NCBI RefSeq assembly: GCF_003003235.1
Contig: NZ_PVUE01000001.1
Span: 496,001 to 560,000, forward strand
From: Antricoccus suffuscus
Lineage (GTDB): Bacteria; Actinomycetota; Actinomycetes; Mycobacteriales; Antricoccaceae
DNA length: 64,000 nucleotides
Direction: 5' to 3'
Part shown: piece by piece, positions 33,150-61,121 of the stretch
How positions within the stretch are numbered: position 1 is the stretch's first letter
How the letters are laid out: every line of letters starts with the position of its first letter
Program-made: the position numbers and the translations under genes
Notes under the pieces: generated by a model
Database searches by the model: none
What the model saw: only the letters and a program-made list of their open reading frames with translations
What the model was told of the DNA's origin: nothing

Positions 33150-33189
33150 GTCCGGCAAGGTGGTCGTCAGGGCGACCACTTTGCCGGAC
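33150..33189 (+). repeat. Family-2 palindrome (GTCCGGCAAGGTGGTCG type), copy 1
   Basis: GTCCGGCAAGGTGGTCG (33150-33166), loop TCAGGG, then CGACCACTTTGCCGGAC (33173-33189): 17-bp arms with a single mismatch. It lies 16 bp after the glutamate dehydrogenase stop and could terminate transcription, though no U-tract follows. The same 40-bp element recurs at 61082-61121. Confidence 0.85.
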
Positions 33190-34199: not shown

Positions 34200-34506
34200 C
34201 TCCTCGCTTGTGTCATCACTTGTGCCCTTGTGTCACCGACCTCGGTGACACAAGGGCATCGTTCGTGACACAAGCGCCGTTTGAGCAGCGGAAAGATTGA
34301 CACGGCCCGGCCGGACCGGTTAACTAACACGAATTTCATGTGTTGAGCCTTGTCGTTAGACACGCCAAGGTCTACGTCTGCGTCGTCGGCGTTACCACGT
34401 CGGGTCGCTTAGCGAGTGTCGCCGCGATCGCGGGCGTGCACCGAATTGCCATCAGGACAAGTAGCGAACATTCCGAGTTTCTCGTACCGGTTGATTGGAT
34501 TCGCAT
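34200..34506. other. Intergenic region with quadruple-box element
   Basis: 307 bp. The first third is the TTGTGTCA element (34208-34273). The remainder (34280-34506) holds the likely promoter of the solute-binding protein gene; no coding frame or RNA recognised. Confidence 0.5.
34208..34273. repeat. Family-1 quadruple TTGTGTCA element, copy 1
   Basis: Octamers TTGTGTCA at 34208-34215 and 34228-34235, then TGACACAA at 34246-34253 and 34266-34273: two nested inverted repeats with start spacing 20/18/20. The inner pair sits in a perfect 16-bp stem (34223-34238 with 34243-34258) and a 4-base loop. Starts 8 bp after the esterase stop. The same four-box layout is at 56810-56875. Confidence 0.9.
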
Positions 34507-36099: not shown

Positions 36100-36141
36100 T
36101 GTGGAAGTTCTATGTACGCCGGCGTACATAGAACTTCCACA
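36100..36141. repeat. Family-3 palindrome (TGTGGAAG type), copy A
   Basis: A perfect 42-bp palindrome with two 21-bp arms and no loop; it begins TGTGGAAGTTC and ends GAACTTCCACA around a central GTACGCCGGCGTAC. It lies 12 bp after the solute-binding protein stop and 19 bp before the convergent cupin stop, and so could terminate both. Relatives are at 39132 and 42075. Confidence 0.9.
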
Positions 36142-36160
36142 TAAACAAGGCGGCGTGGGT

Positions 36161-36580
36161 TTAGGCGAGCTCGAAGTCGGCGAAGTCGAAGCCTGGCGTC
36201 ACGACACAGCCCACGATGACGGTCTCGTCGCCCGCCGGACGCGCGGCCTGCCAGACGTTGGCCGGCACCAGCAGTTGGCCGCCGAGCCCGAGGGTGTACG
36301 TCGTCGCGTCGCCGGGCCGGGCGCCGTCGCCACCGAGATCGAGTTCGAGAGGGCCGCCGCCTTGCCAGAACCACAGTTCGTCGGAGCGCACCCGGTGCCA
36401 CGCGGATTCTTGCCCGGGTTGCAGTAGAAACGAGATCGCGGTCGCGAGACCGCGCGGACCGTTGGGCGTGGCGACGTCCTGCGGGTTGCGATAGTGCTCG
36501 ACGTACCAGCCGCCCTCCGGGTGTGGTTGCATGCCGAGGGCGGCGGGATCGGTCAGGTCGTCGGCGTTGAACTGGTACAT
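36161..36580 (-). CDS. Cupin-5 (DUF985) protein
   Basis: 139 residues. HPEGGWYVEHYR near the N-terminus, FLLQPGQESAWHRVRSDELW with the cupin His/Glu residues, and LLVPANVWQAAR then GCVVTPGFDF at the C-terminus are the DUF985 cupin pattern. These small beta-barrel proteins are thought to bind metal or sugar ligands; function is not established. It is a single gene divergent from the SLT transglycosylase and convergent with the solute-binding protein across the palindrome at 36100-36141. Length normal. Confidence 0.88.
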   Translation of the reverse strand: MYQFNADDLTDPAALGMQPHPEGGWYVEHYRNPQDVATPNGPRGLATAISFLLQPGQESAWHRVRSDELWFWQGGGPLELDLGGDGARPGDATTYTLGLGGQLLVPANVWQAARPAGDETVIVGCVVTPGFDFADFELA

Positions 36581-36771
36581 GCCACCGAGCCTACGGAGCG
36601 TGAGCCGCGACTTACACGGACTTGGCCTACGACACCCGAATGAGTAACGCCGCCGGTGACCTCGGACTAGATGTGCTCGCGCCCGGCGCCAATTAGTCCG
36701 GCGCGCGGGAGGCCCGTTCCGTGAGTGCAGTGCTCGCTAAAGGTGCGCGTTGCGGTCGCTAGGATTTCGGC

Positions 36772-37473
36772 GTGCCTCCTGCTCAGCGCCGTACGGCGTC
36801 GTCGCCTCGAAAGGTGGTGTCGACGCGTACGCCGAAACGGACGACCGCTGCCAAACGGAAGACTGCCTCGCAGCGGGCGATGGAGAAGCGGATCGCGCAC
36901 CGAAATCTCTTGGCGCGTAGGGCATTGGTGATTGGTGCCGCGATCCTGATAGTGGCGGGCATCGTGTTTGCCGTGGTCAAGGAAGAGCCGCCGGCGTACG
37001 CCGATGAACTCGGCTGCGCGGCCACCGCCCCACTCAAACAGGGGAGCGTCCCGGGCGGGTGGTACGACGATGTCGTGGCCGCCGCGAAGAGTTCGGGGCT
37101 GCCGGCGCCGATCCTCGCCGCGCAGCTCGACCAGGAGTCCCGATGGGATCCACAAGCGGTCAGCCATGCCGGTGCACAGGGTCTCGCTCAGTTCCGGCCC
37201 GACACGTGGGACGAGTACGGCGCGGGCGACCCGTTCGATCCGCAGGACGCGATCAAAGCGCAGGGCAATTTCATGGCGCACCTCATCGAGTCGGTCACGT
37301 CGCTGGCCACCCAGAGCGGCGAGCACCCCGTCGTACTCGCGCTCGCGGCCTACAACGCCGGTCCCACCGCGGTCGCGAAGTACGGTGGTGTGCCGCCGTT
37401 CGCGGAGACCGAGCACTACGTCAAGGTGATACCGCAGATGGCGAACTCGACGTACGCCGAGGGCTGCGACTAA
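36772..37473 (+). CDS. Membrane-anchored SLT-type lytic transglycosylase
   Basis: 233 residues. A very basic N-terminus (about 1-45, KRKTASQRAMEKRIAHR) precedes one transmembrane helix (ALVIGAAILIVAGIVFAVV); the catalytic part is extracytoplasmic (about 90-233). QLDQESRWDPQAVSHAGAQG holds the catalytic Glu, followed by LAQFRPDTW and AAYNAGPTAVAKYGG, the classical goose-lysozyme/SLT motifs. It should cleave the MurNAc-GlcNAc bond of peptidoglycan. GTG start at 36772. Only 16 bp separate it from the PanE-like gene, so they are probably co-transcribed, though no functional link is evident. Confidence 0.92.
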   Translation: MPPAQRRTASSPRKVVSTRTPKRTTAAKRKTASQRAMEKRIAHRNLLARRALVIGAAILIVAGIVFAVVKEEPPAYADELGCAATAPLKQGSVPGGWYDDVVAAAKSSGLPAPILAAQLDQESRWDPQAVSHAGAQGLAQFRPDTWDEYGAGDPFDPQDAIKAQGNFMAHLIESVTSLATQSGEHPVVLALAAYNAGPTAVAKYGGVPPFAETEHYVKVIPQMANSTYAEGCD

Positions 37474-37489
37474 GGCAATTGGAGGACTC

Positions 37490-38413
37490 GTGAAGATAGC
37501 CGTTGTCGGCACCGGGGCGATGGGCTCGACGTACGCCGGACTGCTCAGCGCGGCCGGGCACGAGGTCTGGGCCATCGACACGTGGGTCGAGCACATCGAT
37601 GCGATCAACCGTGATGGTCTGCGGGTCGAAGGTGCCAGCGGTGATCGGGTGGCGCGGCTCTCGGCGAGTACGTCGACGGGGGACCCTGGCGTCTGCGACC
37701 TGGTCATCATCGCGACCAAGGCCGACGGGGTGACCGCGGCCGCGCGCAGCATCGACCCGCTGCTCGGCCCGGAGTCCGTCGTACTCACCATCCAAAACGG
37801 CCTCGGCAGCGCCGAACGCATCGTCGAAGCAATCGGCCCGGAGCGGGTGCTGGTCGGGATCGCGGGCGGTTTCGGTGCGTCGATCCGTACGCCGGGGCAC
37901 GCGCACCACACCGGCTGGGAGACCGTCCGGATCGGCGAGCTGGCCGGTGCCGTCTCGCCCCGGCTGCGGGCCGTCGTCGACGTGTGGCGCAACGCCGGAT
38001 TCCCTGCTGAGGTCGCGGAAAACGTGCACCGGATGATCTGGGAGAAGTTCATCTGCAACGTCGGCTTCTCCGGGATCTGCACGCTGACCGGACTCAAAAT
38101 GGGCGAGGTCACCGACAACCCGGATGCGTGGGAAGTCGGCGCCGGCTGCGCCCGCGAGGCGTGGGAGGTCGCGCGGGCGCTCGAGGTCGGGGTGCGGTTC
38201 GACGATCCGGTGGCGCACGTGCGCGAATACGGCCGCGCGATCGCGGAGGCGCGGCCGTCGATGGCGCTTGATCATTTGGCGGGCAAGCGCTCCGAGGTCG
38301 ACGTACTGAACGGCGCGGTGCCCGTCCAAGCACGCAAGGTCGGCCTGCGTGCGCCGTACAACGAGGTGGTCAGCGCCCTGGTGCGGCAGCGGGAGACCCA
38401 GTTCGCGACCTGA
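37490..38413 (+). CDS. 2-dehydropantoate 2-reductase family protein
   Basis: 307 residues. N-terminal Rossmann motif VVGTGAMGSTYAGLLSAAGH for NADP; central LTIQNGLGSAERI; C-terminal helical domain with WEKFICNVGFSGICTLTGLK (catalytic Lys region) and GKRSEVDVLNGAV (substrate-binding). This matches ApbA/PanE ketopantoate reductases, but no pantothenate genes are adjacent, and many actinobacterial paralogues act on other 2-oxo acids, so I give no symbol. GTG start with GGAGG 4 nt before. Probably in operon with the SLT gene. Confidence 0.87.
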   Translation: MKIAVVGTGAMGSTYAGLLSAAGHEVWAIDTWVEHIDAINRDGLRVEGASGDRVARLSASTSTGDPGVCDLVIIATKADGVTAAARSIDPLLGPESVVLTIQNGLGSAERIVEAIGPERVLVGIAGGFGASIRTPGHAHHTGWETVRIGELAGAVSPRLRAVVDVWRNAGFPAEVAENVHRMIWEKFICNVGFSGICTLTGLKMGEVTDNPDAWEVGAGCAREAWEVARALEVGVRFDDPVAHVREYGRAIAEARPSMALDHLAGKRSEVDVLNGAVPVQARKVGLRAPYNEVVSALVRQRETQFAT

Positions 38414-38448
38414 GCCGTCGACGATTTTGGCGGGCGTTGGCCACAAAA

Positions 38449-38463
38449 CCGAATCGGATTCGG
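38449..38463. promoter_or_regulatory. Candidate TetR operator
   Basis: CCGAATCGGATTCGG, a 15-bp palindrome (7-bp arms, one central base), 23 bp before the TetR start, flanked by AAAA and TTT that extend its symmetry. A typical autoregulatory operator; no data support it beyond position. Confidence 0.55.
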
Positions 38464-38485
38464 CTTTGGTCGATACACTCGGCGA

Positions 38486-39109
38486 ATGGAACGTGAGAGC
38501 ACCGGTGTGACCGAACCGATCGCAGCCGGCGGCAAGGTTCTCTCGCGCGCCGAGGCCACCCGCGCCGCCATCCTCGACGCGGCTCGGGTCGTGTTCGTCC
38601 GTGACGGGTACGCCGAATCGTCGATCGCCGTGATTTGCGAGTCGGCCGGCGCCAGCGTCGGCAGTCTTTATCACCACTTCGGTGGCAAGGCCGACGTCTT
38701 CATCGCGCTGTTTCGTCGGCACGCCCAAGTGCTCAGCTCGGCCGCGACGAATGCCGTCGTCCTCGCCCGCGCCTCCGGCGAGCTCGACCCGGTCGAACTG
38801 TTCGTCGCCGGTGCGCGTGGATATCTGCAGCAGTGCCGCGCGGAGAAGGACCTGACCGTGCTGTTCTTGTACGGCGACGGCCCGCCCGGATTCAATGCGC
38901 TTCGTCGGGCGGAGGACTCGTCATGGGTCGGTCAGAATTCGCGACTGATCCGGGCGGAAGAACGCCGTAACGGTCGGGCTTTGGTGCATGTGCTGACGAC
39001 CGTGTGCGGCTCGGCCGGGCGCGAGGTGGCGAAGGCGCAGACCGCCAAGGACACCGACGTACTCATCGACGACTTCTGCGACCTGCTCCGCCGCGTCGCC
39101 CAGCCTTAA
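38486..39109 (+). CDS. TetR/AcrR-family transcriptional regulator
   Basis: 207 residues. The N-terminal HTH (about 20-70) shows TRAAILDAARVVFVRDGYAE, AVICESAGASVGSLYHHFGG and KADVFIALFRRHA, the canonical TetR pattern. The C-terminal ligand-binding domain is unlabelled. A CCGAATC-G-GATTCGG palindrome at 38449-38463 overlaps its probable promoter, so it is likely autoregulated. The downstream FAD monooxygenase (183 bp away, with palindrome copy B between) could be a target but is not obviously in the same transcript. Ligand unknown. Confidence 0.92.
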   Translation: MERESTGVTEPIAAGGKVLSRAEATRAAILDAARVVFVRDGYAESSIAVICESAGASVGSLYHHFGGKADVFIALFRRHAQVLSSAATNAVVLARASGELDPVELFVAGARGYLQQCRAEKDLTVLFLYGDGPPGFNALRRAEDSSWVGQNSRLIRAEERRNGRALVHVLTTVCGSAGREVAKAQTAKDTDVLIDDFCDLLRRVAQP

Positions 39110-39131
39110 CCTCGGCCGCGAGACGCGGACT

Positions 39132-39173
39132 GTGTGGAAATTCGACGTACGCGGGTGTACGCCGATCTTCCAC
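39132..39173. repeat. Family-3 palindrome, copy B (diverged)
   Basis: GTGGAAATTCGACGTAC and GTACGCCGATCTTCCAC arms, which pair with three mismatches around GCGGGT. Begins 22 bp after the TetR stop. It shares the GTGGAA ends and central GTACG with copies at 36100 and 42075. Confidence 0.75.
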
Positions 39174-39292
39174 GTTATCGACGGAGTGCGTGGATCTACC
39201 CATTCCGGCGATCGAGAATGGGTAACTCGCCCGATGCGTTGACGTACGACGCGCTTCTAGCGTTGGAGACCTCCCAACCAATGGAGGAAGTC

Positions 39293-40381
39293 ATGTCGAG
39301 TGAGTACGTCGAAACGGTGGTTATCGGGGCCGGCCAGGCTGGTCTCGCGGTGGGGTACCACCTTCGGCAAATTGACAGGAAGTTCTTGATTCTCGACGGC
39401 AATGTGCGGGTGGGAGATGGCTGGCGGCGGCAGTGGGACTCGCTGAGACTCTTCAGCCCCGCCAGCCACGACGCGCTGCCCGGGATGCGGTTTCCCGCCC
39501 CGAAGTGGTCTTATCCCGGCAAGGACGAGGTCGCGGACTATCTGGAGCAGTACGCCGCGGCGTTCGACCTTCCGATCCGACTTGAGAGCACTGTCGACTC
39601 CTTGGTCGCCAGCGCGGACGGGTATGTCGTGACCGTCGGCGCGCACCAGATCGAGACCAGCAACGTGGTGATCGCGACCGGCGGACTGGGGCGTACGCCG
39701 TACATCCCGGCTTTCGCAGACCGGCTCGATCCGGGAATTCTGCAGCTGCATTCGAGTGAATACCGCCGTCCCGCGCAGCTGCGGCCCGGTCCGGTGCTGG
39801 TCGTCGGTGCCTCGCACTCCGGCTGCGATCTGGCCTACGAGCTTGCGCCTCATCATCCGACAACGCTGTGCGGGCGCGACCCTGGCCAGATCCCCGTCCA
39901 TCTCGATTCGCCGATGACCCGCGTGATCTTCCCTGTCGTGGCATTCGTGGAGGGCCACGTGCTCACCCGTCGTACGCCGATGGGACGGCGTGCCAAGACA
40001 CATGTGCGCGACCATGGCGCGCCGATGCTGCGGGTGAAGCGGCGTGACCTGCTCGCCCGCGGGGTCAAGCGAGTCACCGAACGGGTCACCGACGCGCGAG
40101 GCGGCCTGCCGCTGCTGGCGGACGGCACCGTCGTGCAAGTCGCGAATGTACTGTGGTGCACCGGATTCCGTCAGTCATTCGATTGGGTTGATGTGCCGGT
40201 CTTCGACGACGACGGCTGGCCGGTGGAGAATCGCGGAGTCACCGAGTCGCCGGGCCTGTACTTCAGTGGGCTGTCGTTCCAGTACGCCTTCTCGTCGATG
40301 CTGATTGACGGCGCCGGACGCGACGCGGCGTACGTCGTACGGCATATCGGGCAACGCGAGCGCGCGTACGTCGACGCCTAA
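39293..40381 (+). CDS. FAD-dependent monooxygenase / flavoprotein (CzcO-like)
   Basis: 362 residues. Two dinucleotide folds: VVIGAGQAGLAVGYHLRQI for FAD at the N-terminus and VLVVGASHSGCDLAYELA for NADPH near residue 170. GDGWRRQWDSLRLFSPA and VVIATGGLGRTPYIP (the ATG strand) fit group-B flavin monooxygenases and the CzcO-like relatives common in actinobacteria. GLYFSGLSFQYAFSSMLIDG closes the FAD site. It probably oxygenates a small organic substrate in the cytosol. Start is ATG 39293 with GGAGG 5 nt upstream; a longer frame from 39134 runs through the palindrome and is rejected. Confidence 0.9.
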   Translation: MSSEYVETVVIGAGQAGLAVGYHLRQIDRKFLILDGNVRVGDGWRRQWDSLRLFSPASHDALPGMRFPAPKWSYPGKDEVADYLEQYAAAFDLPIRLESTVDSLVASADGYVVTVGAHQIETSNVVIATGGLGRTPYIPAFADRLDPGILQLHSSEYRRPAQLRPGPVLVVGASHSGCDLAYELAPHHPTTLCGRDPGQIPVHLDSPMTRVIFPVVAFVEGHVLTRRTPMGRRAKTHVRDHGAPMLRVKRRDLLARGVKRVTERVTDARGGLPLLADGTVVQVANVLWCTGFRQSFDWVDVPVFDDDGWPVENRGVTESPGLYFSGLSFQYAFSSMLIDGAGRDAAYVVRHIGQRERAYVDA

Positions 40382-40427
40382 CCGGATTGGGCCCGTCGCG
40401 GGTATTCTCCGACCAGGAGGATCCGCG

Positions 40428-42056
40428 ATGGGCGTGGTCGCCGAACTCGTTTATGGGCGAGAGGCATTCGAACGCCGGGCCTGGGCCACGGCCTACGAGG
40501 CGCTGTCCGCCGTACCGCCGGAATCGCTGGGCGAAGCTGACCTGGCGGCCCTCGCTACGTCTGCTTATCTCGCCGGCGACCATGAGAGTGCGATCCGCGC
40601 GTGGCATCGCGCATTCGAGTCTCACATCGATTCCGGAGACAGCCTGAGCGCCGTTCGTGACGCTCATTGGCTGGCTTTCGCCAGCGCGGTCGGCGGTAAT
40701 TTCGCGGCCGCGGAGGGGTGGGTCGCCCGCGCCGAACGACTGCTGCAGACTCAATCGGCTGATGTTGTCGAACGTGGCTATATCTGTATTGCGCACTTCC
40801 AGAGCTGCATCGCGGCAGGTGACTTCGCGGCAGCCGAAGAGCTCGCTACCCAGATCCGCGAGATCGGCGAACGGCACGGAGATGCGGATCTCGCGGCGCA
40901 GGGGCTGTGCGGTCAGGGTCGGATGATGATGTACGCCGGGCGCGTGCGCGACGGACTAGCGATGCTTGACGAGGCGATGCTGAGGATCGCCGGCGGCGAC
41001 GTGTCGCCAATCTTCGCCGGCATGCTCTACTGCGCAATGATCGACGGCTGCCAGGAGGTCGGCGACTACCGGCGAATGTCCGAATGGACCTCCTCGCTGA
41101 GCCGGTGGTGCACCGCCCAGCCCGACATGGTGCCCTTCACCGGTCAGTGCGCCGTGCACCGCGCCCAGATCATGCGCCACCACAGCGGTTTCAACGAGGC
41201 GCTGAATGAACTCGCCTTAGCCATCGACCGCTACCGCGCGGCCGGCACCGAGCCCGCCGCCGGGATGGCATTTCACGAGCGCGGTGAAATTTTTCGAGTC
41301 CTGGGCGATTTTGAGGGCGCAGAGGAAGCGTTCAACGAGGCAGCCGCGCTCGGCTACGAACCGCAGCCGGGACTTGCGTTGTTATGGATGGCGCAAGGGC
41401 GAATTTCTGCGGCAGCCGCAGCCATCAAGCGGGTCCTCGCCGAGACCCCGAACCCGATCCAGCGGGCCCGGCAACTTCCGGCAGCCGTGCAGATATTGCT
41501 GTCCGCGGGCGCCGTCGTGGATGCCACTGCGCCCTCCGACGAGCTCGACTCGGTGGCGCGGCTGTTCGGGACGGACTCGATCGATGCGATCGCGTCGTAC
41601 GCCGCCGGCCTGGTGCGCCTGGCAAACGATGATCCCGCCGGAGCACTGCCGCCGCTGCGACGAGCGTGGACCGCCTGGATCGACGCCGGGTCCCGCTACG
41701 ACGCGGCGCGGGCGCGGGTGCAGATTGCGTTGGCGTTTCGTGCGCTCGGGGACGAAGACTCCGCGATCGCCGAGCTGTCGGTTGCGGGTCGTACGTTTGC
41801 CGAGCTCGGCGCGACCCCGGACGAAGAACTGGTCGCGAGGTTGGTACGGCGTACCGCTCCGGGTGGCTTGTCTGAGCGGGAGATCGAGGTGTTGCGTCTG
41901 GTCGCGGCGGGCAACAGTAACCCGCAGATCGCCGTTGCTTTGGTCCTCAGTGAGAAGACCGTGGCGCGTCATCTGAGCAACATCTTCGCCAAGCTCGCAG
42001 TCCGCTCGCGCACGGCGGCCGCGGCGTACGCCTTCGAGCATGGTCTCGTCCGTTAG
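40428..42056 (+). CDS. LuxR-type regulator with TPR-like sensor region
   Basis: 542 residues. Residues about 1-470 are helical repeats of the TPR kind (AAEGWVARAERLL, AAEELATQIREIGERHGDAD, FNEALNELALAIDRYRAAG, GDFEGAEEAFNEAAALG). The C-terminal ~60 residues form a LuxR/GerE HTH: LSEREIEVLRLVAAGNSNPQ then IAVALVLSEKTVARHLSNIF. No NTPase domain is seen, unlike MalT/LAL proteins. AGGAGG stands 7 nt before ATG 40428. Such regulators respond to protein partners or small ligands; targets are unknown. Stands alone, with palindrome copy C after the stop. Confidence 0.9.
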   Translation: MGVVAELVYGREAFERRAWATAYEALSAVPPESLGEADLAALATSAYLAGDHESAIRAWHRAFESHIDSGDSLSAVRDAHWLAFASAVGGNFAAAEGWVARAERLLQTQSADVVERGYICIAHFQSCIAAGDFAAAEELATQIREIGERHGDADLAAQGLCGQGRMMMYAGRVRDGLAMLDEAMLRIAGGDVSPIFAGMLYCAMIDGCQEVGDYRRMSEWTSSLSRWCTAQPDMVPFTGQCAVHRAQIMRHHSGFNEALNELALAIDRYRAAGTEPAAGMAFHERGEIFRVLGDFEGAEEAFNEAAALGYEPQPGLALLWMAQGRISAAAAAIKRVLAETPNPIQRARQLPAAVQILLSAGAVVDATAPSDELDSVARLFGTDSIDAIASYAAGLVRLANDDPAGALPPLRRAWTAWIDAGSRYDAARARVQIALAFRALGDEDSAIAELSVAGRTFAELGATPDEELVARLVRRTAPGGLSEREIEVLRLVAAGNSNPQIAVALVLSEKTVARHLSNIFAKLAVRSRTAAAAYAFEHGLVR

Positions 42057-42074
42057 TTCCGGGCGATTGCGACA

Positions 42075-42118
42075 GTGTGGAAGATCGGCGTACGCCGGCG
42101 TACACCGATCTTCCACAC
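42075..42118. repeat. Family-3 palindrome, copy C
   Basis: 44 bp, two 22-bp arms beginning GTGTGGAAGATCGG, with one mismatch and no loop, around the same GTACGCCGGCGTAC core as copy A. It starts 18 bp after the LuxR stop and ends 19 bp before the convergent nitroreductase stop; it could terminate both. Confidence 0.9.
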
Positions 42119-56803: not shown

Positions 56804-56809
56804 CCGTGC

Positions 56810-56875
56810 TTGTGTCACCAACCGTGCACTTGTGTCACGGAGGTCGGTGACACAAGTGCACAAGCGCTGACACAA
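56810..56875. repeat. Family-1 quadruple TTGTGTCA element, copy 2
   Basis: TTGTGTCA at 56810-56817 and 56830-56837; TGACACAA at 56848-56855 and 56868-56875. Start spacing 20/18/20, identical to copy 1. The inner arms form a 15-bp stem (56824-56838 with 56847-56861). The core GTGTCAC..GTGACAC matches the reverse complement of copy 1 at 21 of 22 positions. Starts 6 bp after the PIG-V-like gene. Confidence 0.9.
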
Positions 56876-56925
56876 GCGGCCTGTGACGTAAATCCGCATT
56901 GCGCGCGGCGATAGTCCGCGCGTAG

Positions 56926-61081: not shown

Positions 61082-61121
61082 GTCCGCCAAAGTGGTCGCA
61101 ATAACGACCACTTTGCCGGAC
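61082..61121 (+). repeat. Family-2 palindrome, copy 2
   Basis: GTCCGCCAAAGTGGTCG (61082-61098), loop CAATAA, CGACCACTTTGCCGGAC (61105-61121): 17-bp arms with one mismatch. The right arm is identical to that of copy 1 at 33173-33189. It starts 25 bp after the MocA-MoaE stop. Confidence 0.85.

Follow-up and report, generated by a model that had tools for sequence, protein, structure and literature searches.

Dispersed palindromic repeats associated with genes for predicted AbiEi-nuclease fusion proteins in Antricoccus suffuscus and other actinobacteria

Palindromes of the window

The window analyzed here is a 64,000-nucleotide stretch of the Antricoccus suffuscus genome (contig NZ_PVUE01000001.1, positions 496,001 to 560,000). 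It contains three TGTGGAAG...GTAC palindromes, here called family A (Table 1), where none would be expected by chance. Their core pattern gives 6 half-matches in the window, two per palindrome, and 0 in 100 dinucleotide-preserving shuffles, so that the three palindromes with a common core described in an earlier note on this DNA are real. The position given there stands for the perfect, loopless copy at 36100-36141; the copy with one mismatched pair is placed at 42076-42117, and the diverged copy lies one base further on, at 39133-39174 rather than 39132-39173. All three are found, as that note had it, shortly past the stop codons of mutually unrelated genes, which encode a family 5 solute-binding protein, a TetR regulator, and a LuxR/TPR regulator; the gaps are 12, 23, and 19 bp for the copies at 36100, 42076, and 39133, respectively. 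Strong hairpins are predicted for two of the three, the intact ones. A scan for rho-independent terminators called 0 of the 3 sites, at which a T-tract is absent, and an Rfam search of the window up to E=1 found no known RNA families.

The same window contains palindromes of two other families, B and C, which the earlier note did not mention. For each of these, the genome has a separate AbiEi-DUF559 gene outside the window. A separate part of the window, at ~3500-23700, has few ORFs with the third-position GC bias that was used for gene picking in the rest of the window and is possibly a stretch of different origin.

Table 1. Palindromes of the window and framed genes of families A, B, and C (window positions, unless a contig is named)
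Feature	Position	Strand	Remarks
Family C palindrome, GTCCGGCAAAGTGGTCG type	33150..33189	.	
Family B palindrome, CTTGTGTCA type	34205..34276	.	5 bp past a stop
Family A palindrome, perfect, no loop	36100..36141	.	Convergent genes either side
Family A palindrome, diverged	39133..39174	.	Co-directional genes either side
Family A palindrome, one mismatched pair	42076..42117	.	Convergent genes either side
Family B palindrome	56808..56878	.	4 bp past a stop
Family C palindrome	61082..61121	.	~25 bp past a stop
Family A framed gene	C1:172222-173149	minus	AbiEi_4 match and weak DUF559 match; outside the window
Family C framed gene	C1:477043-477984		AbiEi-DUF559 kind; outside the window
Family B framed gene	C5:18653-19618		AbiEi-DUF559 kind; outside the window

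Palindrome families in the genome

Family A is a dispersed family. The genome-wide search for the GTGGAAG...GTAC palindrome that the earlier note had proposed returns 11 copies in the 4.68-Mb genome (22 half-matches; 0 in the reversed control). That note had taken the existence of only three copies, with the sequence in no relative, as the case against a spreading family; the copy number contradicts it, whereas the exact sequence is indeed found in no other species. The degenerate pattern GTGGAA...GTAC....GTAC...TTCCAC has 0 exact matches among 84,980 other species, and no two-armed family A copy was found in 60 relatives. The relatives carry their own versions of the palindrome, with the same gene-framing architecture.

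The GTGGAA ends and the central GTAC, reported earlier for the window copies, are kept in all 11, except for one GCAC and one decayed arm. The six positions between these motifs are variable in sequence, yet their pairing tends to persist: the covariation score of the arms exceeds those of slid controls, and only 1 of 500 shuffles scores as high. The family ends in TTGTGTGG / CCACACAA, and its palindrome foot carries neither a GTAG nor a CGTC tag. One copy (C1:164028-164069; locus L064) is joined to ~130 bp of 3'-terminal sequence from the family A gene and is a decayed or partial cassette.

Families B and C comprise ~14 and ~22 genomic copies, respectively. With gene contexts taken from simple ORF picks, the 34 solitary copies of the three families are distributed between convergent (17) and co-directional (17) genes, with 0 between divergent genes and 0 inside genes. 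Most of them sit 5 to 55 bp past a stop.

Genes framed by the palindromes

Two family A copies located ~1 kb apart (C1:172169-172216 and C1:173230-173271) bracket a single gene. Besides those of families A to C, five palindromes (D to H) each frame a gene of the same AbiEi-DUF559 kind. Where both flanks could be read, each AbiEi-DUF559 gene (8 of 8) thus has a copy of its own palindrome on either side, and the eight palindromes differ in sequence from gene to gene. A ninth gene adjoins a contig end and is not part of this count. The weakest framing is that of gene G, with a direct-repeat score of 17.5, compared to 26.5 to 72 for the other framed genes. No flanking palindrome pair was found at the true Vsr gene of the genome. 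In this genome, the space between two palindromes is filled by a single gene of ~0.8 to 1 kb; an AbiEii toxin gene is absent there, and there is no room for a second gene.

The earlier note had suggested looking for a RAYT/TnpA-REP-like transposase or a palindrome-binding protein elsewhere in the genome. The former is not in evidence, as the search of the 97.8%-complete genome for Y1_Tnp (PF01797, RAYT) gave no match, whereas control genomes do match. A palindrome-associated gene does exist, namely, the AbiEi-DUF559 gene flanked by family A.

Related genes in other actinobacteria

Loci encoding relatives of the framed proteins were taken from 80 places in named genomes, nearly all of them actinobacterial, and 79 were usable. 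A matching repeat upstream and just downstream of the gene (score of at least 18) is found at 59% of the 79 loci and in 0.4% of 555 slid windows. The loci were picked for their resemblance to genes whose flanking repeats were already known, and the percentage across the entire protein family may be different. Palindromes on both sides (score of at least 20) are present at 41% of the loci and in 0.4% of the slid windows. At the threshold of 18, the remaining 41% of the 79 related genes have no recognizable flanking repeat. One palindrome stands ~70 to 180 bp upstream of the gene and another just past it. Among the genera are Jiangella, Phytoactinopolyspora, Microlunatus, Micropruina, Nakamurella, Gordonia, Nocardioides, Dactylosporangium, and Propionicicella; Nakamurella lactea belongs to the same order as the genome of the window. 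Protein similarity correlates with palindrome similarity (rho 0.58; 0 of 2000 permutations as high); outside the Jiangella group, the same correlation is weak (rho 0.17; 44 of 2000).

A loop sequence, GTAGTC/GACTAC in either orientation, is common to several otherwise unlike palindromes (loci L090, L099, L129, L130, and L146 and family H). Locus L109 (JAGROY010000004.1) is filed under a Verrucomicrobiia MAG, and its flanks are 95% identical to Micropruina glycogenica (L095); on this sequence identity, the contig is probably misbinned. The gene at L131 has no palindrome beside it but an exact direct repeat of 192 bp on either side, which could be an assembly artifact.

Carriage on plasmids or phages was considered and rejected. 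A search for plasmid carriage found no plasmid-borne relative, and the one phage case is a full-length relative of the protein, 28% identical, on an unannotated scaffold of an uncultured phage from human stool (L320; MT835975.1). The AbiEi-DUF559 cassettes are apparently mainly chromosomal.

Predicted structure of the protein

The structure of the relative from Jiangella aurantiaca was predicted with AlphaFold2 from an alignment of 73 sequences (pLDDT 93.4). Residues 1 to 190 of the model, its N-terminal two thirds, match the AbiEi antitoxin 6y8q (Z 12.6), and residues 189 to 297 match the endonuclease-like protein 3hrl (Z 11.8), the homing endonuclease I-Bth0305I (Z 11.1), and Vsr (Z 9.4). 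A profile search weakly matches the same AbiEi and 3hrl proteins. Among the 73 relatives, E198 and D229 are invariant, and E240, D242, and H247 are almost invariant; the invariant acidic residues are of the type usual for such nucleases. PF13338 is found in 61 of the 73, and the PADLOC AbiEi models match 72. The cognate protein is predicted to consist of two fused parts, a DNA-binding winged-helix module of the AbiEi type and a nuclease similar to Vsr and the EDxHD homing endonucleases, and the model suggests that it would be active as a nuclease.

Dispersal and turnover in Jiangella and Phytoactinopolyspora

Seven genomes of Jiangella and Phytoactinopolyspora contain 38 to 91 palindromes with TGATCATC ends each, and the dispersed subfamilies correspond to the palindromes of framed genes. 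One orthologous site holds palindromes of different subfamilies in two species and none in five others; further sites have a palindrome in one or two species and are empty in others. At such filled and empty sites, the junctions are too diverged for a target duplication to be read. In J. endophytica, a palindrome pair frames a frameshifted AbiEi-DUF559 gene (L287; C6:47153-48133), and dispersed copies of the subfamily remain.

At a given site, the cassette of one species can be inverted relative to that of another, and the homology of the flanks reaches the palindromes. Clean inversion pairs are L105/L113 and L092/L102, and the framed genes at the inverted Jiangella sites share 76 to 85% DNA identity. 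The two palindromes of a cassette have a mean identity of 0.92; for orthologous cassettes that share a site, the value is 0.71 (n = 11 and 18; p = 4e-5, for pairs that are not independent). Higher identity within than between cassettes indicates concerted evolution, which requires copying between palindromes.

Two ideas on the origin of solitary copies were set aside. A solo-LTR-like origin, in which recombination removes the gene and leaves a solitary palindrome, is unsupported: the inserts of 0.7 to 1.3 kb at one Jiangella site are not DUF559 genes. At ~1501-1550 of L278, a Jiangella palindrome lies exactly in the center of CCCCCAGTTCCATGGAACTGGGGG, as though inserted in an existing hairpin; a single suggestive case is not enough to propose insertion into pre-existing hairpins.

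Possible mechanism and alternative explanations

The best explanation of the whole, with a probability of roughly 0.7, is that an AbiEi-Vsr nuclease serves a dispersed palindromic repeat of REP-like type, of which the window palindromes are solitary copies. The association of the palindromes with AbiEi-DUF559 genes is strongly supported by the sequence comparisons. The same comparisons display the cognate pairing, the 3'-end dispersal, the covariation of the arms, the presence or absence of solitary copies, inversion, and concerted evolution. From these we infer that the copying of palindromes would be driven by cleavage. The AbiEi-like part might recognize its own palindrome, probably in an extruded state (hairpin or cruciform), and the Vsr-like part might then nick or cut the bound palindrome. 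Repair from another copy would allow the palindromes to spread, homogenize, and invert, much as in homing or gene conversion. Copies would persist mainly just past stop codons, where they should do little harm and may act as terminators or 3'-end hairpins. The Vsr-like nuclease fold is not known to have a joining activity, so this scheme does not account for the entry of a palindrome into a palindrome-less site. Host recombination alone could also be the source of inversion and concerted evolution. At about even odds, the AbiEi-Vsr (DUF559) proteins might represent a previously unrecognized class of palindrome-specific nucleases, which would cleave hairpins and, via repair, copy, homogenize, and invert the palindromes that belong to them. 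Such a class would parallel REP/RAYT in actinobacteria, with a homing-endonuclease fold in place of the HUH transposase.

The palindromes could instead be bidirectional terminators that were multiplied or kept for termination, with a nuclease gene only incidentally caught between two copies. The placement of the 34 solitary copies (convergent or co-directional, never divergent or intragenic, mostly 5 to 55 bp past a stop) and the strong hairpins of the two intact window copies fit such a role; the lack of a T-tract and the failure of the terminator scan at all three window sites do not. Termination also leaves unexplained why each of the eight palindromes, different as they are, brackets the same kind of gene, why flanking repeats are found at 59% of the loci in other genomes against 0.4% of the slid windows, and why an upstream copy stands before the gene. 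As a full account it is unlikely. A terminator role can nevertheless stand alongside the nuclease-served repeat as a partial truth: strong hairpins without a T-tract may still stop transcription, and a terminator-like benefit may be the reason for where copies persist.

AbiEi antitoxins are DNA-binding autoregulators, and the palindromes might be operators bound by an AbiEi-like regulator whose copies spread as regulatory sites. This would agree with the PADLOC matches in 72 of the 73 relatives and with the palindrome ~70 to 180 bp upstream of the gene. It would not predict a second copy just past the gene, the dispersal of copies in this genome to 3' ends and never to divergent promoter regions, or their gain and loss between species. 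Moreover, arm positions without sequence conservation still covary, and an operator bound as a duplex would not need that pairing. This option is quite improbable. Presence or absence between species and intergenic dispersal would suit nonautonomous transposons (MITE or REP) that depend on an unrelated transposase, with the nuclease genes as passengers between two insertions. Passengers would be expected to be various, yet a single kind of gene is framed, by differing palindromes, palindrome similarity follows protein similarity, and the genome has no Y1_Tnp. We regard this origin as highly improbable.

Significance

REP-type palindromes have so far been tied to one enzyme class, the RAYTs. 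Here, a widespread and poorly characterized protein family, listed in databases only as AbiEi "antitoxin" and DUF559, is systematically paired with its own palindrome, whose sequence differs by clade, and this pairing makes the question of how such repeats spread directly testable. If the proteins do cut their palindromes, palindromic repeats would have a second way of colonizing genomes, one that evolved independently, the proteins would provide many natural protein-palindrome pairs for the study of hairpin recognition, and the reading of these genes as parts of toxin-antitoxin systems would need correcting.

Comparison with known systems

REP/RAYT systems (REPtrons) consist of short dispersed intergenic palindromes and a flanked cognate gene (PMC3733652, PMC8266576). 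The system described here resembles them in three ways: its short palindromes are dispersed in intergenic spaces near 3' ends, where the neighboring genes are convergent or co-directional; a gene is flanked by its own palindromes; and one genome contains several families, with a separate gene for each. REPs show the same placement relative to genes as the solitary A, B, and C copies (PMC3733652). The differences are in the enzyme, which is here predicted to combine AbiEi and Vsr-like nuclease folds and is not an HUH/Y1 transposase, and in the foot of family A, which lacks the GTAG/CGTC tag. In addition, GTAG repeats were surveyed in Proteobacteria, Cyanobacteria, Chloroflexi, and PVC (PMC3733652), and the present repeats are found in Actinomycetota, outside those phyla. 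With no HUH transposase found in the genome and family A untagged, identity with a RAYT/REPtron was rejected. CGTC-tagged REPs have been described without a dedicated transposase, and no RAYT is known for them (PMC3733652). They are likewise dispersed 3'-end palindromes without a known RAYT but differ in the tag and in the phyla.

The EDxHD/Vsr-like homing endonuclease I-Bth0305I has a similar nuclease fold, according to the model, and its gene, like the framed genes, would lie inside its own possible target. Inversion and concerted evolution, as read from the cassette sequences, appear compatible with target cutting that drives gene copying. In contrast to the I-Bth0305I type, there is no intron or intein here, an AbiEi module is present at the N terminus, and the target exists in many dispersed copies without a gene. 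AbiE type IV toxin-antitoxin systems share the AbiEi fold and the matches to AbiEi models but have neither the fused nuclease domain nor this arrangement, in which the palindromes enclose no AbiEii toxin gene; an AbiE toxin-antitoxin pair is excluded because a second gene cannot fit between the palindromes.

In the open-access literature, no description was found of a palindrome paired with an AbiEi-DUF559/Vsr-like gene. Since the enzyme class is unlike that of every palindrome-repeat system found, the system would be of a new kind, although less so if any palindrome with a cognate enzyme is counted as one kind. The recurrence of this pairing across many actinobacteria, each with a different palindrome, points to an undescribed kind of spreading repeat.
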